The translations under genes and the position numbers were made by a program. Of a stretch of DNA of 64,000 nt, positions 2,913-14,576 are shown piece after piece. Source of the stretch: Gemmatimonadota bacterium (GTDB lineage: Bacteria; Gemmatimonadota; Gemmatimonadetes; Gemmatimonadales; Gemmatimonadaceae); NCBI GenBank assembly GCA_014192065.1, contig BJHH01000001.1, positions 186,001 through 250,000 of the forward strand. Reading direction: 5' to 3'. The notes under the pieces were generated by a model. It was not told the DNA's origin. It was given only the letters and a program-made list of their open reading frames with translations, and made no database searches. Position 1 is the first letter of the stretch; every line of letters starts with the position of its first letter.

Positions 2913-5741
2913 ATGCTCCGCACGAACGCCCGTTCGATCATGCACCGCGCCGCGCTCGCCCTCTCGTTCCTCACCCTCTCGGCTGTCGCGTTTGCCCAGT
3001 CGGCCACCCCGACGAAAAAGGTGCTCAACGTCGGCGACTACGGCCGCTGGAATCGCATCACCTCTACCGCCATTTCGAACGACGGCAAATGGATGAGCTA
3101 CGCGTACGCGCCCAACGAGGGCGATGTGACGCTCCATGTGAAGCAACTCGACGGCGACAAGGTGCACACGCTCTCCGTGGGTGGGCCTGGCGCCGGTGGC
3201 GGTCGCGGTGGTGGTGGCGGCGGAGCGCCGACCTTTTCCGACGACTCGCACTGGATCGCCTACTATGTGAACCCGAGCGAAGCTGCCGGTCGCGGTGGGC
3301 GGGCGGGTCGCGGTGCGGCACCAGCCTCCACGCAGCGTCGGCTCGAGCTCCTCCAAGTCGAAACCGGTGTGAAGACCATTTTCCCGAACCCCGCGTCGTT
3401 CAGCTTCAGTAAGGGTTCGAAGTTTCTTGCCGTGAAGAGCAATCGCCCGGCCGGCGCCGACACGTCGTACAAGGGCGGCGACCTGTTGTTGCGTGACCTC
3501 ACCAACAGCAATACGCGCAATATCGGCAATGTGAACGAGTACGAGTTCGACGACGCGGGCAAGCAGCTCGCCTACACTGTCGACGCCGCCGAAAAACTCG
3601 GCAACGGCGTCTACCTGATGGAGGTCGCCAGCGGCGACACGCGCGCGCTCTCGACCGCGCAGGCCGAGTACGATCAACTCACCTGGAGCGACGAGGGTAC
3701 CAATCTGGCCGTGCTGCGCGGCACGAAACGGCGCGAGATGAAGCAACGCGACAATGCGCTCCTCACCTGGCGCTTCAACGGCAGCAACGTCGAGGTGCTT
3801 GTCCGCAATCCAACCGACGCGCTGAAGGGCTACGTGATCAGCGAATTCACCGCGCCGCGGTGGAGCAAAGATGGTTCGAAGCTGTTTATCGGCCTCAAGG
3901 AGCAGGGACCGGAGCTCGCTCCCGCCGACTCAACCAAAGCGAACGTGGACGTCTGGCACTACAAGGACACTGAGGCGCAGTCGGTGCAGATCGTGCGCCT
4001 GCAGCAGGAGCGTCGGGCCACCTATCTGGCCGCCTACCACCTCGGCTCACGCGAGATCGTGATTCTGGCCGACACCGCCATGCGCGCGGTGACCACCACC
4101 GCCAACGGCAAGTGGGGAGTGGGCCGCAACGACGTCGCCTACCGCGGCTCGGTCGAATGGGGCGCGGCAAAGGCCGATCTCTATCGCATCAACGTCGAGA
4201 CCGGTGAGCGCACGCGCATCGCCAACACACTGTCGCGCACCTACGGCACCTCGCCCGACAGTAAGTGGTTCCTCTATCTCAAGGACAAGCGCGTCCACGC
4301 CTTCAATCTCGAGACGGGCAGGGATGGCATGATCGACGCGGGCGTTCCGAAAGGGTTCGTGAACAACGAAGACGATCACGACTACGAAAAGCCGATCTAC
4401 GGCGTGGCTGGGTGGAGCAAGGACGGCAAGTCGGTGCTGCTCAATCAGCGCTTCGACCTCTGGCAGTTGCCGCTTGAAGCCGGCACGCCGGTGAACCTCA
4501 CCAAGGGCGTCGGCGACAAGGAACAGATCCGTTTCCGCATCGTCCGCCCTGGCCAGGGTGGCGGCCGTGGCGGCGCCGCCGCAGGCGACGACGAAGGTGT
4601 CGATCTCTCGCAGCCGCTCACGCTTTCGGCGTATGGCGAGTGGACCAAGAAGAGCGGCTATTACACGCTCCCACCGAACGGAGCGCCCGCGGCGCTCCGG
4701 TATCTCGACAAGGAGGTCGGCGCCGTCACCAAGGCGAAAGACGCCGACCGCGTCATCTACACTGAGCAGACCTTCCAGGAGTTCCCTGACTACTGGATGA
4801 ACGACTCGAAGTTCAGCTCGCCGAAAAGCGTCACCGCCGCGAATCCGTTCATCTCAGAATATGCATGGGGCGGCAAGGTCCTCATCGACTTCAAGAACTC
4901 CAAGGGCCAGCGCCTGCAGGGCACACTGACGCTCCCGGCAGGGTACCAGCCCGGCAAGAAGTATCCGATGCTCGTCTACTTCTACGAGATCACGTCCAAC
5001 ACGCATCACAGTTTCTCGATGCCCTCGTTCGACGACCGGCCGCAGATGAGTACCTATGCGAGCAATGGCTACCTGATGTTCCAGCCCGATATCGTCTACG
5101 AAATCGGCAAGCCGGGATCGAGCGCGCTGGATTGTGTCACGAGCGGCGTGAAGGAAGTCGTCAGACTTGGCTACGCCGACCCCAAGCACATCGGCATGCA
5201 GGGCCACAGCTGGGGCGGCTACCAGTCGAGCTACATCATTACGCAGACCGACATGTTCGCCGCGACGGTCACTGGGGCGCCGCCGACCAATCTCGTCAGT
5301 TTCTACAACGAGCTCTACAAGCAGTCCGGCACCGTGCAGCAAGGCATCATGGAAGTCGGGCAGGTGCGCATGGGCGACAACGTGACGCCGTGGAATTCGC
5401 ACGAGCTCTACGAGAGCCAGTCGCCGCTCCACCACGTCACCAAAATCAAGACGCCGTTCATGATCTTGCACGGCACGGCCGACGGAGCCGTGGACTGGAT
5501 CGAGGGTCTCCAGTACTTCAATGCCGCTCGGCGGAATGGCAAACAGGTGATCCTGCTGTCGTATCCCAATGAGCCGCATCACCTGGCGAACAAAGAAAAT
5601 CAAAAAGATTTCCAAGTGCGCATGAAGCAGTACTTCGACCATTACCTCACCGGCGCGCCAATGCCCAGCTGGATGGCTGAGGGACTGCCACAGGTGCGGA
5701 AGGGTGAGGCCATCAAACCCGTGGTGACGCCAAGGCCGTAG
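2913..5741 (+). CDS. Secreted S9 family peptidase (prolyl oligopeptidase / DPP-IV-like)
   Basis: 942 aa. The N-terminus is a signal peptide (hydrophobic stretch ending AFAQS near residue 29). An N-terminal beta-propeller region carries two Gly/Arg-rich runs, near residues 90-105 and 545-560. The C-terminal alpha/beta hydrolase domain has the nucleophile elbow GHSWGGYQ (Ser766), Asp857 in HGTADGAVDW and His889 in NEPHHL, a complete Ser-Asp-His triad. S9 enzymes cleave oligopeptides, often after proline, and the signal peptide places this one in the periplasm or outside. It stands alone on the plus strand and is paralogous to the S9 peptidase at 21627-24761, with the same GHSWGGYQS elbow. A second in-frame ATG (residue 10, MHRAAL) would give a more compact signal peptide. 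The exact substrate cannot be read from the sequence. Confidence 0.93.
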   Translation: MLRTNARSIMHRAALALSFLTLSAVAFAQSATPTKKVLNVGDYGRWNRITSTAISNDGKWMSYAYAPNEGDVTLHVKQLDGDKVHTLSVGGPGAGGGRGGGGGGAPTFSDDSHWIAYYVNPSEAAGRGGRAGRGAAPASTQRRLELLQVETGVKTIFPNPASFSFSKGSKFLAVKSNRPAGADTSYKGGDLLLRDLTNSNTRNIGNVNEYEFDDAGKQLAYTVDAAEKLGNGVYLMEVASGDTRALSTAQAEYDQLTWSDEGTNLAVLRGTKRREMKQRDNALLTWRFNGSNVEVLVRNPTDALKGYVISEFTAPRWSKDGSKLFIGLKEQGPELAPADSTKANVDVWHYKDTEAQSVQIVRLQQERRATYLAAYHLGSREIVILADTAMRAVTTTANGKWGVGRNDVAYRGSVEWGAAKADLYRINVETGERTRIANTLSRTYGTSPDSKWFLYLKDKRVHAFNLETGRDGMIDAGVPKGFVNNEDDHDYEKPIYGVAGWSKDGKSVLLNQRFDLWQLPLEAGTPVNLTKGVGDKEQIRFRIVRPGQGGGRGGAAAGDDEGVDLSQPLTLSAYGEWTKKSGYYTLPPNGAPAALRYLDKEVGAVTKAKDADRVIYTEQTFQEFPDYWMNDSKFSSPKSVTAANPFISEYAWGGKVLIDFKNSKGQRLQGTLTLPAGYQPGKKYPMLVYFYEITSNTHHSFSMPSFDDRPQMSTYASNGYLMFQPDIVYEIGKPGSSALDCVTSGVKEVVRLGYADPKHIGMQGHSWGGYQSSYIITQTDMFAATVTGAPPTNLVSFYNELYKQSGTVQQGIMEVGQVRMGDNVTPWNSHELYESQSPLHHVTKIKTPFMILHGTADGAVDWIEGLQYFNAARRNGKQVILLSYPNEPHHLANKENQKDFQVRMKQYFDHYLTGAPMPSWMAEGLPQVRKGEAIKPVVTPRP

Positions 5742-5915: not shown

Positions 5916-6009
5916 CCGTCCCGGGATTCCGTATGTTCACGTCGATGTGAAAATCCCAGCCGTGCCTGTCATACGGCGATCGACACTCTACCCCGCTTCC
6001 ACGCATCCC

Positions 6010-8499
6010 ATGTCGACCAACACCACCGCTGCCGTTCCATCCGCTCGCTTTCTCCCGCTGATGCTCGCCCTCTTCGTCGGCTCGGGCTGCGCGGCGCTCA
6101 TCTACGAGATCGTCTGGTTCCAGGTGCTCCAGCTGGTGATCGGGTCGTCGGCGATCTCGCTCGCCGTGCTGCTCGGCACCTTCATGGGCGGCATGTGTAT
6201 CGGGTCGCTGATGCTCGCGAAGTACGTTTCGCGCGCCGAGCACCCGCTGGTGGTGTACGCCAAGCTCGAAGCGTTCATCGGTATTGTCGGCGCGTTGCTG
6301 ATCGTGTTAATGCCGCTCGTGGGCCGGCTCTACACGGCAGTCGATGGCGGCGGCCCGATGAGCATCGCCTTGCGCGCACTGGTGAGCATCCTGCTCCTGC
6401 TGCCGCCCACGATCCTCATGGGCGCGACGCTCCCTGCGATTGCGCGCTTCGTCGAGGCCACGCCGAGCGGCACGGCCTGGCTCGGATTCTTCTACGGCGG
6501 CAACATCGTCGGTGCGGTCGTAGGCTGCCTCACGGCCGGATTCTACCTGCTCAGGAAGTTTGACCTCACCACGGCAGCACTCGTCGCCGTGGCGCTCAAC
6601 GCACTCGTCGCTGGCGCGGCGATGCTGCTTGCCAAACGGGCCACGTACGTTGCACCAAAGGAACCGGTGGTCGGCTCAGAGGCGGCGGCCGCGGCGGCCG
6701 CGGCGACCGCGCCCGGCCTGGCCAGTTGGCAGCCTCGCGGCGTCTACATCGCGATCGCCCTCTCGGGCCTCACCGCGCTCGGCGCCGAAGTGGTCTGGAC
6801 GCGCCTGTTGTCACTGATGTTCGGTGCGACGACGTACGCCTTCTCGGTGATTCTCGCGGTCTTCCTGATGGGACTCGGGATCGGTAGCGTGTCCGGCTCC
6901 GCCATCGCCAAGAACACGACGAATCCGCGCGCCGCGCTTGGTTGGGTGCAGCTGCTGCTCGCGTTCACCACCGCGTGGGGCGCGTGGGTCGTTGCACACG
7001 GACTCCCGCACTGGCCCATCAACGCCGTCCTCGCGCCAAGCGCCTGGTCCAACTTTCAGCTCGACATGGCGCGGGCGATGTTCATGCTCCTCCCAGGCGC
7101 CGTGCTCTGGGGTGCGAGTTTCCCACTCGCCCTGTCCGCTGCGACCACGCGTGAGAGCGATCCGGGCCGTACCGTCGGCCGCGTCTACGCCGCGAACACG
7201 CTTGGCGCGATCGTCGGCTCGGTGGTTACCGGCACGCTGCTCGTACCGTGGATCGGAACCAAGGGTGCGCAGCAGGCACTGATCGTGCTCTCCGTCGTCT
7301 CTGGACTGGCGGCGCTGCTGCCCCTGTTCCGCAGCCGCAACGCCGTCGAAGCCAGGACAGCACTCGGACCCGCGAGCACCTTCGGTGTCGGTCTGCTTGC
7401 CGTGGCCGCGCTCTACTTCGCTGCGCAGGTCTCGATGGTACCCGCCGGCCTCATCGCCTGGGGTCGGTCGCTCCCGTGGCAGGGTGAACCGAACGCGTTG
7501 TACGTCGGCGAGGGAATCAATTCGTCCATCGCCGTCACCGAAGAACCCAACGGCTACCGCAACTTCCATGTAAGCGGCAAGGTCGAGGCCTCCACCGAAC
7601 CGCAGGACATGCGGCTCCAACGGCTCCTTGGTCACCTCTCCGTGCTCATGCACGACGACCCGAAGAGCGTACTCGTCGTTGGGTTTGGCGCGGGAGTGAC
7701 CGCTGGCGCGATCAGCATCCATCCGTCGCTGCAGCGCATGGTCATCTGCGAGATGGAGCCGCTCATCCCAAGGATCGTTTCGACCTACTTTGCCGACGCG
7801 AACCACCGCGTGAAGGACAACAAGCGAGTCGAAATCACCTACGATGATGCGCGGCACTATGTGCTCACGACGCGCGAAAAGTTCGACGTCATTACCTCCG
7901 ACCCGATTCACCCCTGGGTGAAGGGCGCGGCGACGCTGTACACGAAGGAATACTTCGAGCACGTGAAGGCGCATCTCAATCCGGGCGGCGTCGTCACGCA
8001 GTGGGTCCCGCTCTATGAAAGCACCGAGGAAGTGGTCAAGAGCGAAGTCGCCACCTTCCTCGAGGTCTTTCCGAACGGCACGGTCTGGCGCAACGACTAT
8101 CAGGACGGCACCGGATACGACGTGGTGCTCGTTGGCCGGCTCGACGAGAAGCCGATCGACGTCGACGCTTGGCAAGCCAAACTTGAAAAGCCGGAGTATG
8201 CGGCGGTCCGGGCCTCGCTCGTCGAGGTCGGCTACCTCAGCGCATTTGACCTGCTCAAGACCTACACCGGCCGCGGAGCGGATCTCAAGCCGTGGACGGC
8301 CAACGGTGAGATCAACCGCGACAGCAACCTGCGCCTCCAGTACCTCGCCGGGTTCGGGTTCAACATCTACCGTGGCACCGAAATCCGTGACGCGATGCTG
8401 CGGTTCCGCAGCTTCCCGACCGACCTGTTCATCGGTTCGCCCGCCAGCGTGGAGCAGCTGCGTGGAATGACGATGGGCGGCTTCGGCGCGCCAGAGTGA
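6010..8499 (+). CDS. Fused membrane (MFS-like) / spermidine synthase-like protein
   Basis: 829 aa from the ATG at 6010. An in-frame GTG at 5947 would add 21 residues that look unlike a membrane N-terminus. The N-terminal ~480 residues are very hydrophobic, with about 12-14 probable membrane segments in two halves. These are separated by an alanine-rich linker (Ala runs around residues 222-236) that marks a repeat boundary. The C-terminal ~300 residues form a Rossmann methyltransferase-like domain with VVGFGAGVTAG (SAM/dcSAM loop), CEMEP and SDPIHPW, characteristic of the spermidine-synthase superfamily. Fused proteins of this type are common, but polyamine synthesis has not been shown for them in general. 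No polyamine gene is adjacent. The start of the next gene follows within 32 bp, so the two may be cotranscribed. Confidence 0.88.
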   Translation: MSTNTTAAVPSARFLPLMLALFVGSGCAALIYEIVWFQVLQLVIGSSAISLAVLLGTFMGGMCIGSLMLAKYVSRAEHPLVVYAKLEAFIGIVGALLIVLMPLVGRLYTAVDGGGPMSIALRALVSILLLLPPTILMGATLPAIARFVEATPSGTAWLGFFYGGNIVGAVVGCLTAGFYLLRKFDLTTAALVAVALNALVAGAAMLLAKRATYVAPKEPVVGSEAAAAAAAATAPGLASWQPRGVYIAIALSGLTALGAEVVWTRLLSLMFGATTYAFSVILAVFLMGLGIGSVSGSAIAKNTTNPRAALGWVQLLLAFTTAWGAWVVAHGLPHWPINAVLAPSAWSNFQLDMARAMFMLLPGAVLWGASFPLALSAATTRESDPGRTVGRVYAANTLGAIVGSVVTGTLLVPWIGTKGAQQALIVLSVVSGLAALLPLFRSRNAVEARTALGPASTFGVGLLAVAALYFAAQVSMVPAGLIAWGRSLPWQGEPNALYVGEGINSSIAVTEEPNGYRNFHVSGKVEASTEPQDMRLQRLLGHLSVLMHDDPKSVLVVGFGAGVTAGAISIHPSLQRMVICEMEPLIPRIVSTYFADANHRVKDNKRVEITYDDARHYVLTTREKFDVITSDPIHPWVKGAATLYTKEYFEHVKAHLNPGGVVTQWVPLYESTEEVVKSEVATFLEVFPNGTVWRNDYQDGTGYDVVLVGRLDEKPIDVDAWQAKLEKPEYAAVRASLVEVGYLSAFDLLKTYTGRGADLKPWTANGEINRDSNLRLQYLAGFGFNIYRGTEIRDAMLRFRSFPTDLFIGSPASVEQLRGMTMGGFGAPE

Positions 8500-8530: not shown

Positions 8531-9382
8531 GTGAGTCTGACCGAGGGCCCCAGCACCGGCGTCGCTGCTGGAATCCCGCCGATCCGGCGCGTGGCCATCA
8601 CGCAGGTCCCGCCCGCTTCGCTCGAGCAGGGCGAACGTTCGTACGTCGGGCGCGACCCCATCGACATGGCCAATGCGCGGGCGCAACACGCGGCCTACTC
8701 CGACCTGTTGCATCAACTCGGCTGCGATCTGGTCGTCCTCAACGCCAATCAGGGTTGCCCCGATGGCGTATTCGTCGAGGACATGGCGATTGTCTTCGAT
8801 GAAATCGCTGTGATGGCGATGCCGGGCGCGCCGTCGCGCCGCGCAGAAATTGCCGGCGTCGAGCAGGAGCTCGTGAACCATCGCAGGCTCGCGCACATCG
8901 CACTGCCCGCGACCCTCGACGGCGGGGACGTCACCGTCGTCGGTCGCGTGGTGCTGGTCGGAAAGTCCGCGCGCACGAACGCGGAGGGCGCCGCGGCGCT
9001 GGCCGAGATTCTGAAACCGTACGGCTATGTCGTGCGGCGCGTGGGAATGCGCAACTGCCTCCACCTCAAGAGCGCCTGTACCGCGCTGCCAGGCGGTCGC
9101 CTGCTCGTGAACCCGGCCTGGCTCGAACTCCAGGACCTTGCCGGTTTCGACATCGTTGAGGTCCCGCGCGACGAGCCCTTTGCCGCCGACATTCTCACCA
9201 TCGGTCGGTCGGTCGTGAGCGCCGAAGAACACCCCAAGACGGCTGCGCTCATTGCCTCGATGGGGTTTGACTCGCGCACCACCCCCCTCTCCGAGTTTGC
9301 AAAGGCGGAGGGTGGCGTGACCTGCATGAGTCTGGTGTTCGAGACCAGACCCCAGCCGGACCTGCCCCAACCGGCGGCGTAG
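8531..9382 (+). CDS. Dimethylarginine dimethylaminohydrolase / arginine deiminase-family hydrolase
   Basis: 283 aa, GTG start preceded by AAGGAG at a good distance. The pentein-fold signature is complete: FVEDMAIV (substrate-binding Glu/Asp), TLDGGDV, the catalytic His in CLHLKS and the C-terminal nucleophile Cys in GGVTCMS. The order and length match DDAH rather than the larger (about 400 aa) arginine deiminases. DDAH enzymes hydrolyse N-omega-methylated arginine to citrulline plus methylamine, although bacterial relatives may act on other guanidines. It lies 31 bp downstream of the membrane/spermidine-synthase-like gene, and a link through arginine/polyamine metabolism is possible but inferred. 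No signal peptide is present, so it is cytosolic. Confidence 0.88.
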   Translation: MSLTEGPSTGVAAGIPPIRRVAITQVPPASLEQGERSYVGRDPIDMANARAQHAAYSDLLHQLGCDLVVLNANQGCPDGVFVEDMAIVFDEIAVMAMPGAPSRRAEIAGVEQELVNHRRLAHIALPATLDGGDVTVVGRVVLVGKSARTNAEGAAALAEILKPYGYVVRRVGMRNCLHLKSACTALPGGRLLVNPAWLELQDLAGFDIVEVPRDEPFAADILTIGRSVVSAEEHPKTAALIASMGFDSRTTPLSEFAKAEGGVTCMSLVFETRPQPDLPQPAA

Positions 9383-9513
9383 ACCCTCGCCGCCAGCTCG
9401 CCAGCGCGACAAGTTCTTATAGATGCGATTTTCCGGTTCGCACCCAGCAGACGGGGGCATCCCGGCGTAGTTACCTAGTTCCCCTATCGTCCCAGAAATC
9501 AGGAGCTCCACGC

Positions 9514-10905
9514 ATGGCCCGCAGACTCCTCTTTGCAGTTCCCCTGGCGTTGCCGGTCGCGTTCGCGACGGCGTTCGCTCAAACCGCAGATCCCGGCAAG
9601 GCCGTGACCGCGGTGCGCGCCGATTATGCGCTCACCAACGTCCGGATCGTCACCGCGCCCGGCAAGGTGATCGAGCGCGGCACTGTTCTGACGCGTGATG
9701 GTCGGATCGCCGCGGTCGGTGCCACCGTACAAATCCCCGCTGGTGTCACGCAGATGGATCTGAGCGGGCACACAGTGTACGCCGGCCTTATTGACGCCGC
9801 GACAAGTATCGGTCTCCCCAGTCCGAGCCGTCCGCTTCCGGCGATGACTGCGGCTGGCGCCGCACCCGCGGCTGGACGTGGTGGTGGCGGTGGTGGCGGT
9901 CGTGGCGTTCCATTGGGTCGCGGATCGGCTCCGCCCCCGCCGGTCGTGCTGCCTGAAGTCGAGGCCGACGCCGAGGCCGCGGACATGTTCGCCCCAACCG
10001 ACGACCAGCTCAAAGCATTCCGAGCCGGTGGTGTGACGACCGTCGGATTGGTCTTCGACGGTGGTCTCTTCCCGGGCCGCGTCGGCTCCGCGCTCACCGG
10101 CACGCGCGGCGGGTCGCCGCTGGCGCTCCGGGCCGCGTCGGGCCAAGTCGTGGCGTTCGGCACAAAGCGTGGCGGTGCCTATCCCGGCACCGGGATTGGC
10201 GCGGTGGCGTTCATCCGCCAGGCATTCCTCGACGCACAGTACGAAGCACGGCTCGACAAGGCATTCAAAGCCGGCACACCCGGCGCCCGCCCGTCGAACG
10301 ATCCGTTCAGCCGCGCGCTCGTCCCAGCCGCGACGAGCGAGATGAGTTCGTGGTTCGTGGCCTCGACGGAGCGGCAGATTGTGCGTGTCGCCGAGATCGC
10401 GAAGGAACTGGGTCTCAAGACACCGGTGGTCGTCGGCTCGCAGGAAGGCTGGCGGGTCATCGCCAACCTCAAGTCGACCGGTGCAACTGCCGTCGTCAGC
10501 CTGCAGTGGCCGTCGCCTGATTCAATCACCGGTCGGGCCTTCCTGGCCGTTGGTTCTGGTAAGAGCGGCACGGCGCCGGCTACGACCGCAGCCGACACCG
10601 CCGAAGTCCGTGCCAACGCCGCGGCCCTCACCAAGGCGGGCGTTCCCGTGGCGTTCGCCTCCTACGGTGGCGAAAGCGGCAACACCTTCCGCGACCGCAT
10701 TCGCCTGACCATCGCGGCGGGCATGAGTCCTGACGATGCGCTCCGCGCCGCCACGGTCACTCCGGCCGCTGTACTCGGCATCAGCGCCGCCGTCGGCACC
10801 ATCGAAGTCGGCAAGCTCGCCAACTTCGTCATCGTGACCGGTAACGACCTCTTCGCCGCTACGAACCCGATCAAGCACGTTTTCATCGAAGGCCGGATCT
10901 ACTAA
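9514..10905 (+). CDS. Amidohydrolase-like secreted protein lacking the metal-binding HxH (putative pseudoenzyme)
   Basis: 463 aa with a signal peptide ending AFAQT near residue 24 and AGGAGC upstream of the ATG. The amidohydrolase frame is clear: the N-terminal strand DYALTNVRIVTAPG, the GTVLTRDGRIAAVGA pattern, and a C-terminal GTIEVGKLANFVIVTG. However, the site that should read GLIDAHxH reads GLIDAATSIG, so both His ligands (positions 96 and 98) are replaced by Ala and Ser. The late catalytic Asp region reads FASYGGES with no Asp. A Gly/Arg run sits near residues 118-135. It is the first gene of a tight operon (2 bp to the next gene). It could be an inactive partner of the intact paralogue downstream, or have a metal-independent role. 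Confidence 0.87.
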   Translation: MARRLLFAVPLALPVAFATAFAQTADPGKAVTAVRADYALTNVRIVTAPGKVIERGTVLTRDGRIAAVGATVQIPAGVTQMDLSGHTVYAGLIDAATSIGLPSPSRPLPAMTAAGAAPAAGRGGGGGGGRGVPLGRGSAPPPPVVLPEVEADAEAADMFAPTDDQLKAFRAGGVTTVGLVFDGGLFPGRVGSALTGTRGGSPLALRAASGQVVAFGTKRGGAYPGTGIGAVAFIRQAFLDAQYEARLDKAFKAGTPGARPSNDPFSRALVPAATSEMSSWFVASTERQIVRVAEIAKELGLKTPVVVGSQEGWRVIANLKSTGATAVVSLQWPSPDSITGRAFLAVGSGKSGTAPATTAADTAEVRANAAALTKAGVPVAFASYGGESGNTFRDRIRLTIAAGMSPDDALRAATVTPAAVLGISAAVGTIEVGKLANFVIVTGNDLFAATNPIKHVFIEGRIY

Positions 10906-10907
10906 CC

Positions 10908-12230
10908 ATGGACTCTCATATGCGCATCCTCAACGTCGGAATGCTCGGCCGTGCGGCGCGTGCCTGCGTCGTCGTCGCGGCGATTTCCACTCCCGCCGTG
11001 CTCGTGGCCCAGGACCTCGCCATCAGGAACGCGACGCTGATCACGATTACCGGCGGCGACATCCAGAACGGGACCATTCTCGTGCGCAACGGCAAGATCA
11101 CCGCCGTCGGCGCCAACGTGAATATCCCGGCTGGCGTTCGCACGATCGACGGCACGGGCAAATTCGTGATGCCCGGCATCATCGACGCCCACTCGCACGC
11201 CGCCCTTGAAGGCGGCATCAACGAGGGCGCCGAGTCGGTCACGCCAGAAGTGCAGGTTCAGCTCAAGGGTGACGATCCCGTCGTGTATCGCGCGCTCGCC
11301 GGCGGTGTGACGGCCGCGCTCCTGCTCCACGGTAGCGCGAACACGATTGGCGGCCAGTCACGCGTCATCAAGATGCGCTGGGGCCAGTCAGCCGATTCGA
11401 TGTACTTCAAAGGCGCGTTCCGGATTGTGAAGTTCGCGCTCGGTGAAAACGTCACCCGCGCCAACTCCACCGCGCCGGCCGACGAACGTCGCTTTCCCAT
11501 GACCCGCATGGGTGTGGAATTCACCGTCCGCTACTGGTTCCAGAAGGCGAAGGAGTACGACCAGGAATGGAAGGAGTATCGTGACGCGGTGAAGACCAAC
11601 CCGAACGCGATCATGCCGCGCCGGGACCTCCGCCTCGAAGCCCTGACCGATATTCTGCACGGCGACCTGAAGGTGCATTCGCACAGCTACCGCGGCGACG
11701 AGATCCTGATGCTCATCCGCGTCGCCGACGAGAACGGCTTCAAGGTCAACACCTTCCAGCACGTGCTCGAGGGCTACAAGGTGGCCGACGAAATCGCACG
11801 TCACGGGGCGATGGCCTCAACCTTCGCCGATATGTGGGGCTACAAGGTCGAAGCCTTCGACGCGATTCCGTACAACATGGCGCTCATGTCCCAGCGCGGT
11901 GTCGTGGTGTCGGTCAACTCTGACTCTGACGAACGGATCCGCAGGCTTTACCAGGAAGCGGGCATCGGCGTTCGGTACGGGAACATGAGCGTCAATGAAG
12001 CGCTCAAGATGGTGACGCTGAACCCCGCCAAACAGCTCGGCGTGGACAAGATGGTCGGCTCACTCGAAAACGGAAAAGACGGCGACATCGCGGTCTTCTC
12101 GGCGCATCCCTTCGCGCCCGACGCGATGGTCGAATACACCGTCGTCGACGGCAAAGTGCTGTTCGATCGTTCACAGGCGAACACGCTGCGCAAAGTGGCC
12201 GCCGAGAAGGGCCCCGGAGGCACGAAGTAA
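10908..12230 (+). CDS. Secreted metal-dependent amidohydrolase (imidazolonepropionase-like)
   Basis: 440 aa; the second ATG (residue 5) gives the more typical signal peptide, ending VLVAQ near residue 35. It retains the amidohydrolase metal centre: GIIDAHSH (His95, His97), later His residues in KVHSHSYRGD and FQHVLEG, and the Asp in SVNSDSDE (Asp339 or 341). The C-terminal GSLENGKDGDIAVFSAHPF motif closes the small beta-sandwich domain. Proteins of this COG1228-like type hydrolyse cyclic amides, imides or peptides; the substrate is unknown. It begins 2 bp after its HxH-less paralogue, and its TAA stop overlaps the ATG of another HxH-less paralogue by one base, so the three products are probably made in a fixed ratio. 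Confidence 0.92.
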   Translation: MDSHMRILNVGMLGRAARACVVVAAISTPAVLVAQDLAIRNATLITITGGDIQNGTILVRNGKITAVGANVNIPAGVRTIDGTGKFVMPGIIDAHSHAALEGGINEGAESVTPEVQVQLKGDDPVVYRALAGGVTAALLLHGSANTIGGQSRVIKMRWGQSADSMYFKGAFRIVKFALGENVTRANSTAPADERRFPMTRMGVEFTVRYWFQKAKEYDQEWKEYRDAVKTNPNAIMPRRDLRLEALTDILHGDLKVHSHSYRGDEILMLIRVADENGFKVNTFQHVLEGYKVADEIARHGAMASTFADMWGYKVEAFDAIPYNMALMSQRGVVVSVNSDSDERIRRLYQEAGIGVRYGNMSVNEALKMVTLNPAKQLGVDKMVGSLENGKDGDIAVFSAHPFAPDAMVEYTVVDGKVLFDRSQANTLRKVAAEKGPGGTK

Positions 12231-13537
12231 TGCGACCAATCCAGAAGCAGTTCGCGTCATTCTTTGCTGTTGGCGCGCTCGTCGCCACGGCCGCGACGAT
12301 GGCTACGGCACAGGCCGGCGCCGGTGATGAAGGCACCTTCTTCATCAAGGGCGGCACGATCGTGAACCCAGGTGGCCAGCGGCTGCCCAACACGAACATC
12401 CTCGTCCGGAATAACCGGATCGTCGAGATCGGTACGGCGGCCAGCCCCACGGACGCCAAGGTGATCGACGCCACGGGCAAGTTCATCTACCCGGGCATGA
12501 TCGACGCCAGCACGGGCATCGGCCTAACGGAAATCGGCAGTGTGCAGACGATGGGATTCCGTAGTGAGATGGGTGAATTCAACCCGCACATGCGCGCGCT
12601 GGTCGGACTCAACGTCGAAAGCGAAATCCTCGGCGTGACGCGCATGAATGGCGTCACCTCGGTGGTGACGTCGCCGACTGGCGGCGTCATCAGCGGGCAG
12701 GCGGCACTGATCAATACCGCCGGCTGGACCTGGGAAGACCTCGCCGTCTCGAAGTCCGTCGGCATGATGATCAGCCTGCCGGGCGGGAGTGGTGGTGGCG
12801 GTCGCGGCGGTGGTGGTGGCCGGGGTGGTCGTGGCGGCGCCGCGGGAAATCCGAATGCCGTGGCCGACTTCGAGCGGTTCATGACCGAATCGCGGGACTA
12901 CGACAAGAGTCGTGCCGCCGGCTCGGCCAAGCTCGACCTCATCTACGAGGCAATGCGTCCGGTCTTCAATAAGGAGATCCCGGCGATCATTCCGTGCGGC
13001 AACGAAGCGTCAATCCGCGCGGCCGTCGCGTTCGGTGAGAAGTGGGGCATTCGCGTGGTGCTTCAGGGCGCGTCTGATGCCTGGAAAGTCCGGAAGTTCC
13101 TCGCCGAGAAGAACATTGCGGTCATCCTCGGCGGCATTCAGTCGGCGCCTGGCGATGACGTGCCGTACGACGAGATCTATGCGGCGCCCGGCCTGCTGTA
13201 CGATGCTGGCGTGAAGTTTGCCTTCTCCACCGGTGGCGGCGCCAACGCCCGTCACGTGGCATTCCATGCCGCGCTGGCGATGGCCTACGGCCTGTCGGCC
13301 GACGGCGCACTGAAGGCGCTCACGATCTGGCCCGCCGAGATTCTTGGTGCGGACAAGGAGATCGGGTCGATCGCGAAGGGCAAACTCGCCAATCTGTTCA
13401 TTACGACCGGCGACCCGATGGACCTGCGCACGCAGGTGGTGGAAGTGTTTATCAAGGGCCGTATGTTGGCCGACGATGACCGCCACTCGCGGCTGTATGC
13501 GAAGTACAAGTCGCGGCCGCTGCCGATCAAGCCGTAA
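12230..13537 (+). CDS. Second HxH-less amidohydrolase-like secreted protein
   Basis: 435 aa; signal peptide ending ATAQA near residue 29. Its start codon overlaps the stop of the active paralogue (TAATG). The fold signature is kept (NTNILVRNNRIVEIG, GKFIYPGMIDA, and C-terminal GSIAKGKLANLFITTGD), but the metal site is not. MIDASTGIG stands where MIDAHxH is expected, so Ser94 and Gly96 replace the two His, and FAFSTGGGANAR replaces the segment carrying the catalytic Asp. A Gly/Arg-rich run lies near residues 183-207. Because the same positions are lost in both flanking paralogues while the remaining sequence is well kept, decay is less likely than a non-catalytic or altered function. A terminator follows. 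Confidence 0.87.
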   Translation: MRPIQKQFASFFAVGALVATAATMATAQAGAGDEGTFFIKGGTIVNPGGQRLPNTNILVRNNRIVEIGTAASPTDAKVIDATGKFIYPGMIDASTGIGLTEIGSVQTMGFRSEMGEFNPHMRALVGLNVESEILGVTRMNGVTSVVTSPTGGVISGQAALINTAGWTWEDLAVSKSVGMMISLPGGSGGGGRGGGGGRGGRGGAAGNPNAVADFERFMTESRDYDKSRAAGSAKLDLIYEAMRPVFNKEIPAIIPCGNEASIRAAVAFGEKWGIRVVLQGASDAWKVRKFLAEKNIAVILGGIQSAPGDDVPYDEIYAAPGLLYDAGVKFAFSTGGGANARHVAFHAALAMAYGLSADGALKALTIWPAEILGADKEIGSIAKGKLANLFITTGDPMDLRTQVVEVFIKGRMLADDDRHSRLYAKYKSRPLPIKP

Positions 13538-13557
13538 CTACTGGCGCTCTCTGAACG

Positions 13558-13597
13558 TGCCTTCGCGGCAGCCCGATTCTGGGCTGCCGCGAAGGCA
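13558..13597 (+). terminator. Rho-independent terminator of the amidohydrolase operon
   Basis: A perfect 17-bp inverted repeat (13558-13574 and 13581-13597) with a six-base loop lies 20 bp after the operon's last stop. Only a short TTA follows, so the U-tract is weak. Confidence 0.7.
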
Positions 13598-13672
13598 TTA
13601 ACGGCGTCGTTCACCGCTTGCCGGGCTCATGCCCCGGCGCGACGTTGTCATCACTACAACTGGAGTGACTTT

Positions 13673-14041
13673 GTGTCCAAGTCCGTGACGTACAGCCCGT
13701 GGAAGGACGTTGAACTCGAGACCGTCTCGCCGATGTTGGGCCGCAAGCTCCTCACCGGCCAGCGGATGATGCTCGCGCAGGTCTTCCTCAAGAAGGGCTG
13801 CATCGTGCCGCGCCACCAGCATGAGAACGAGCAGTTCACCTACATCATCGAAGGCGGCCTCCGTTTCTGGATCGGCGAGGACGAAAGCCAGGTGCAGGAT
13901 GTGATGGCCGGTGAGGTGCTCCACATTCCCTCGATGGTCTGGCATAAGGCCGAGGCGCTCGAGGATACGCTCGACGTCGACATTTTCGATCCGCCGCGCG
14001 CGGATTGGATCGCCAAAACCGATTCGTACCTGCGGAAGTAG
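13673..14041 (+). CDS. Small cupin-domain protein
   Basis: 122 aa, GTG start with TGGAG upstream. Cupin motif 1 is visible as RHQHENEQFTYIIEGG (His48, His50, Glu53) and motif 2 as AGEVLHIPSMVWH (His91), giving a plausible divalent-metal site in a single beta-barrel. It has no signal peptide and is cytosolic. Stand-alone cupins of this size may be isomerases, dioxygenases or ligand-binding proteins, and nothing here decides between them. The gene lies 16 bp upstream of the FKBP lipoprotein and may share its transcript. Confidence 0.85.
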   Translation: MSKSVTYSPWKDVELETVSPMLGRKLLTGQRMMLAQVFLKKGCIVPRHQHENEQFTYIIEGGLRFWIGEDESQVQDVMAGEVLHIPSMVWHKAEALEDTLDVDIFDPPRADWIAKTDSYLRK

Positions 14042-14057
14042 ACGCGGGAGCGTAGGC

Positions 14058-14576
<519 letters not shown>

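Follow-up and report, generated by a model that had tools for sequence, protein, structure and literature searches.

A conserved bacterial triad of amidohydrolase paralogues with a complete predicted metal site in the middle protein only

The window analysed here, a stretch of 64,000 nucleotides from a Gemmatimonadota bacterium, contains at 9514-13537 an operon of three coupled amidohydrolase paralogues, hereafter A, B and C. Genes A and B are separated by 2 bp, and the stop codon of B shares 1 bp with the start codon of C (TAATG); a three-paralogue operon with this spacing had been proposed in a preliminary description of the same DNA, and the open reading frames agree with it to the base. 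All three products score above the Pfam cut-offs for both Amidohydro_1 (PF01979) and Amidohydro_3 (PF07969), and each begins with a hydrophobic, signal-peptide-like N-terminus. A mis-called reading frame as the source of the pattern described below was considered and rejected. The features of the operon are as follows:

9501-9505, + strand: Shine-Dalgarno-like AGGAG, 8 bases 5′ of the gene A start (read from the sequence)
9514-10905, + strand: gene A, 463 aa, predicted secreted amidohydrolase-fold pseudoenzyme (ORF list, Pfam, alignment)
10908-12230, + strand: gene B, 440 aa, predicted secreted amidohydrolase with a complete metal site (ORF list, Pfam, alignment)
12230-13537, + strand: gene C, 435 aa, predicted secreted amidohydrolase-fold pseudoenzyme (ORF list, Pfam, alignment)
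13557-13598, + strand: perfect 19-bp hairpin, 20 bases 3′ of gene C (RNA fold -42.3 kcal/mol, z -8.65)

The hairpin has no T-run and is absent from the consensus terminator scan; its position after gene C suggests that the transcription unit probably ends there. Neither a sigma-70 promoter nor a T-run terminator was prominent in the scan around the operon. Immediately upstream lies a gene for an arginine-deiminase/DDAH-type protein (8531-9382), which is not kept beside other triads, and 5947-8499 codes for a protein of 850 aa that combines a membrane part with a spermidine-synthase domain. Downstream of C are a cupin gene (13673-14041) and, after it, an open reading frame (13911-14576) whose C-terminal part resembles FKBP-type isomerases. 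The source genome, a 2.45-Mb assembly, gives 27 matches to the Amidohydro_1 model, some of which are pieces of one gene; several open frames of more than 1000 aa are among them.

Homologues were collected in a set of 138 loci, 58 from Gemmatimonadota and 80 from a scan of named genomes, which provided 138 B, 116 A and 131 C domains for comparison; some loci represent the same genome twice (e.g., L093 and L148), so that the locus counts are slightly inflated. The positions of the metal site, as placed in the window by alignment to B, are:

9799-9807, + strand: A residues 96-98 (ATS), position of the lost HxH
10663-10665, + strand: A Tyr384, position of the lost catalytic Asp
11190-11198, + strand: B His95-Ser96-His97 (HxH), His at both positions in 138/138 B
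11682-11684, + strand: B His259, strand 5 ligand, 138/138 B
11760-11762, + strand: B His285, strand 6 ligand, 138/138 B; Gly in 103/116 A and 119/131 C
11922-11924, + strand: B Asp339, strand 8 catalytic Asp, 138/138 B
12509-12517, + strand: C residues 94-96 (STG), position of the lost HxH
13232-13234, + strand: C Gly335, position of the lost catalytic Asp

Around the HxH the motifs read IDAATSIGL in A, IDAHSHAAL in B and IDASTGIGL in C. At the positions of the B ligands H95, H97, H259, H285 and D339, window A carries A, S, V, G and Y and window C carries S, G, P, G and G, so that both retain none of the five. The absence of the HxH and of the late Asp from A (AATS) and C (STG), and the retention of HSH, the later His residues and the Asp in B, had both been read from the letters in the preliminary description, and the alignment confirms them. 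Window A lacks Cys altogether and has just two His, at 86 and 455, among its 463 residues, and thus the usual metal site cannot be built elsewhere in this protein; window C has four His in the whole protein. The families behave in the same way: the H-H-H-H-D set is found in 138/138 B, 0/116 A and 0/131 C domains, and not one of the five residues is kept in 89 of the 116 A and 99 of the 131 C. Metal ligands elsewhere in the barrel of A or C, which had been named beforehand as evidence against inactive partners, were looked for in the family alignments, and no His or Cys was conserved in at least 85% of either family; what is conserved is chiefly Gly, Pro and Ala, plus a few charged residues, and the substituted ligand positions vary freely. 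This pattern of loss is consistent with A and C having lost catalysis and retained the fold, and with B being a metal-dependent amidohydrolase with a complete predicted metal site. Lys175, invariant in B and missing from A and C, is a candidate for a carboxylated lysine like those seen elsewhere in the family. A subclade of A from Gemmatimonadota (12 sequences) keeps H95, D97, E/Q259 and D339, with Gly at 285; the A domains of L113-L120, L123, L126 and L127 carry the motif DAHADLG and this H-D-E/Q-G-D set, which might form a modified site that still binds a metal instead of a dead one.

A search of 150 Gemmatimonadota genomes found A in 36 (E 1e-30), B in 127 (E 1e-30) and C in 127 (E 1e-20), and the listed genomes without B are those without C; since the B and C queries cross-match weakly, the equal 127/150 is a strong hint, not a proof, of perfect co-occurrence. 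The firmer evidence is the assignment of domains locus by locus, in which C accompanies B in 138/138 cases: in 135 it adjoins B or is fused to it, in two it is encoded at another site in the genome and in one it lies on a separate contig. The two are Armatimonadota loci that seemed to lack C, and both genomes have a C gene elsewhere; the apparent gaps in other loci were traced to contig ends, split model matches and mislabelled domains. Of the 58 Gemmatimonadota loci, 40 have A, B and C in order on one strand, and the 18 picked from weaker C matches comprise 16 B-C dyads with no A nearby and two loci in which A adjoins a B-C fusion; the dyads indicate that A is dispensable in some lineages. 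Together with Gemmatimonadota, the further 80 loci cover Acidobacteriota, Planctomycetota, Bacteroidota (B in 54/99 genomes), Balneolota, Ignavibacteriota, Fidelibacterota, Krumholzibacteriota, Zixibacteria, Armatimonadota, Verrucomicrobiota (Opitutae) and, within Pseudomonadota, Idiomarina, Pseudidiomarina and Undibacterium. The triplet, whose conservation the preliminary description had proposed to check, is thus kept with the same gene order and pattern in more than 100 loci and at least 12 bacterial phyla; chance clustering was rejected on this ground, and the three-part set is, as judged from its distribution, ancient. No other neighbouring gene, and no transporter, was conserved beside the triads in the neighbourhood comparison.

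A few loci depart from the common layout. In a planctomycete (L242, G153:C6:74500-90000) about seven amidohydrolase paralogues lie in a row, most of them devoid of the HxH and with at least one fusion, and the cluster gives the impression of a similar but larger assembly. In a member of the Bacteroidota (L229:6977-14548, genome G162) an open frame of 2523 aa consists of A, half of B and about 1600 residues with no Pfam match, and no proper C was found in this genome. On a plasmid of Hymenobacter volaticus (L250, NZ_CP095062.1) the A-B part is annotated as four separate ORFs with C beside them; this is a decaying plasmid copy.

Among the complete loci, all of which have the three parts on one strand, the architecture is A-B|C in 57, A|B|C in 38, A-B-C in five, A|B-C in five and B-C|A in two (a hyphen marks a fusion and a bar separate genes); the large negative gene spacings in this set reflect ORFs taken from the first possible start and are not real overlaps. 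Only short linkers join the fused domains, across the combinations. A hydrophobic N-terminus is found on 97% of A, 79% of B and 96% of C when they are separate genes, and on 1% of B and 0% of C when they are internal fused domains. The existence of A-B, B-C and A-B-C fusions, that is of fusions in every combination, provides Rosetta-stone evidence that B very probably associates physically with A and C. The shared architectures, the lack of any other conserved neighbour and the loss of the leader from the internal domains indicate, in turn, that the three parts very probably form one exported unit.

All three genes appear to be under strong purifying selection. Against the nearest relative of the window operon (L088), dN/dS is 0.094 for A, 0.067 for B and 0.056 for C, figures that are rough because the synonymous distances are near or above 1; the relaxed selection on the outer genes that would have spoken against functional partners was looked for, and the values of A and C are those of sequences under purifying selection. 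Pairwise tree distances over 108 triads correlate at 0.79 for A-B, 0.84 for B-C and 0.89 for A-C, which in part reflects shared species history, and the best of 200 permutations of the labels gave a correlation below 0.07. The mean tree distance is 2.65 for A, 2.46 for C and 1.64 for B, so that A and C evolve faster than B.

In a quick tree built without outgroups, A forms one group (support 100) and B another (support 89), and all C but two dyad partners, L137 and L143, form a third. These two C genes, which represent one dyad class, group beside B and the amidohydrolase of PDB entry 3ooq, away from the other C, and suggest a second origin of C, in which a C-like partner lost its metal site independently. 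Of the solved structures, 3ooq lies closest to both B and C, which it matches over the full length with E 6e-55 and E 1e-37, respectively; it is placed beside B in the tree, together with a Clostridial homologue (L252, Acetoanaerobium noterae, 3998-5155), a stand-alone protein of 385 aa with no partner. Both score highly with all three family models (A, B and C: 218, 338 and 295 bits for 3ooq; 241, 346 and 310 bits for L252), and other amidohydrolases of the source genome reach at most 92 bits. The Pfam matches, the similarity of C to 3ooq and the score of 3ooq with the A model argue that A and C share descent and fold with the amidohydrolases; L252 may resemble the ancestor of the three parts, all of which probably arose from a single 3ooq-like enzyme. 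The data suggest that one enzyme was triplicated and exported, and that two metal sites were then lost.

Structure prediction was applied to natural fusions. The AlphaFold2 model of the A-B fusion L093 (910 aa, 48 alignment rows) has a mean pLDDT of 81.9 and a pTM of 0.84, and consists of two similar barrels joined by a disordered linker of 50 residues; as the pTM would be low if the domains were freely placed, the relative placement of A and B is probably defined, as judged from this value rather than from PAE. The B half superposes on 3ooq with Z 44 and 2.0 Å over 369 residues. Strands and helices follow one another in the A half as they do in the B half; the fold search with this model listed the B half only, so that the fold of A rests on its sequence and on the secondary structure of the model. 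For the B-C fusion the model was of low quality (pTM 0.46, 8-row alignment) and gives no structural support for a B-C interface.

Our preferred reading, which we regard as likely, is that the products of the operon assemble obligatorily, and in fixed proportion, into a periplasmic hetero-oligomer in which one subunit is catalytic and the other two are pseudoenzymes. Only B would bind the catalytic metal or metals and act as the hydrolase; A and C, which go back to the same ancestor, would fill the places held by identical subunits in a homo-oligomer, and would probably close off, shape or stabilise the mouth of the B active site, completing or guarding it. What we infer here is that the subunits physically assemble 1:1:1, that A and C act as described and that the substrate is peptide-like or an amide. 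The preliminary description had also proposed non-catalytic partners in a periplasmic hetero-oligomer, an idea that conservation, fusions and selection strongly favour, the complex itself being deduced from them. Against it stand the B-C dyads that do without A, the partnerless Clostridial relative and the poor B-C model. As a low-confidence guess, the substrates could be peptides or amino-acid amides, as suggested by the fold relatives (dipeptidases and a Lys/Arg carboxypeptidase) and by a B-C dyad on a plasmid of the alphaproteobacterium Qipengyuania citrea (L251, NZ_CP098495.1, 2123-7123), whose neighbours on either side, a POT-family peptide transporter and an FKBP-type peptidyl-prolyl isomerase, hint at peptides. 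More speculatively, and in our opinion rather doubtfully, the triads might be a widespread and so far overlooked class of periplasmic enzyme, the three paralogous barrels acting as one body in which the central barrel cuts and the two dead ones bind a polymeric or peptide substrate and thread it over the active site, a barrel-fold counterpart of the M16 clamshell derived from a triplicated homo-oligomeric ancestor.

Other explanations share part of this evidence. A and C might be enzymes whose chemistry differs, needing no metal or holding it with other ligands, and which work on the product or the precursor of B in the same pathway; their ancient conservation under purifying selection would fit, sequential enzymes also become fused, and the 12 Gemmatimonadota A sequences with H95, D97, E/Q259 and D339 point that way. 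However, the absence from A and C of any His or Cys conserved in at least 85% of the family, the prevalence of Gly, Pro and Ala among the conserved positions and the free variation of the former ligand positions make this reading rather unlikely; the different chemistry that the preliminary description had left as an option is plausible only for that one H-D-E/Q-G-D subclade of A. Soluble substrate- or peptide-binding proteins, feeding B or a transporter with no stable complex, would likewise be secreted and keep a barrel fold, and the alphaproteobacterial dyad stands behind a POT-family peptide transporter; the short-linker fusions in every combination, and the triads with no conserved transporter alongside, render this quite improbable. 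The faster evolution of A and C could finally be taken as a sign of decaying duplicates kept beside B by chance, but dN/dS values of 0.06-0.09, a spread over at least 12 phyla and the grouping of A and of B each in one clade refute it, and we give it practically no weight.

If the hetero-oligomer exists as proposed, proteins annotated as amidohydrolases in many phyla would be structural partners and not enzymes, and the metabolic annotations built on them would be wrong; B put through screens without its partners may lack activity or be misassigned. The stand-alone enzyme, the B-C dyad, the A-B-C triad and every fusion would then form a natural series along the route from a homo-oligomer to an obligate heteromer with dead subunits. 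The conserved pattern, as read from the genes, is firm, and the mechanism is offered as a proposal.

Among known systems, 3ooq, from Thermotoga maritima, is the nearest in structure to B, which it matches over the full length; unlike A and C, it has a complete metal site, and unlike the whole triad it has no signal peptide in the matched region and is taken here, from the structure alone, as a single protein. Literature searches found no paper on it. The Xaa-Pro dipeptidase and Lys/Arg carboxypeptidase enzymes of the Cc2672 type (3mtw, 3feq and 2qs8) belong to the same superfamily and fold, with Z of about 24-26 for the B domain; however, they match weakly in sequence and are stand-alone enzymes, and with the NCBIfam model for Xaa-Pro dipeptidase (NF051886) A, B and C score 63, 51 and 54 bits against a cut-off of 500. 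Literature searches covering openly available papers on tandem or inactive amidohydrolase domains and on amidohydrolase pseudoenzymes found no description of the triad. Precedents exist for dead amidohydrolase chains, the CRMP proteins among them, for enzymes that a dead paralogue activates, and for enzymes of two halves of which one is active. In Pseudomonas aeruginosa an inactive chain of the superfamily, a pseudo-dihydroorotase, is needed for the activity of aspartate transcarbamoylase (PMC7053772); there the active partner has a different fold and is cytoplasmic, whereas in the triad it is a paralogue of the inactive chains, and no pyrimidine gene was found among the ORFs read beside the operon, which does not place A and C with the pseudo-dihydroorotases. 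In the M16 peptidases, such as the mitochondrial processing peptidase and pitrilysin, the catalytic residues reside in one half, both halves are needed and the genes are fused or separate (PMC12731061); the fold is unrelated and there are two halves instead of three parts, so that the analogy is one of working and implies no relationship. In trypanosomes, the AdoMetDC/prozyme and DHS pairs each consist of an active enzyme and the dead paralogue that activates it (PMC5201418, PMC3663545); these are other enzymes, eukaryotic, paired and unfused. The triad might belong with the prozyme- and M16-type heteromers: its dead paralogues are conserved together with the active one, and fusions occur.
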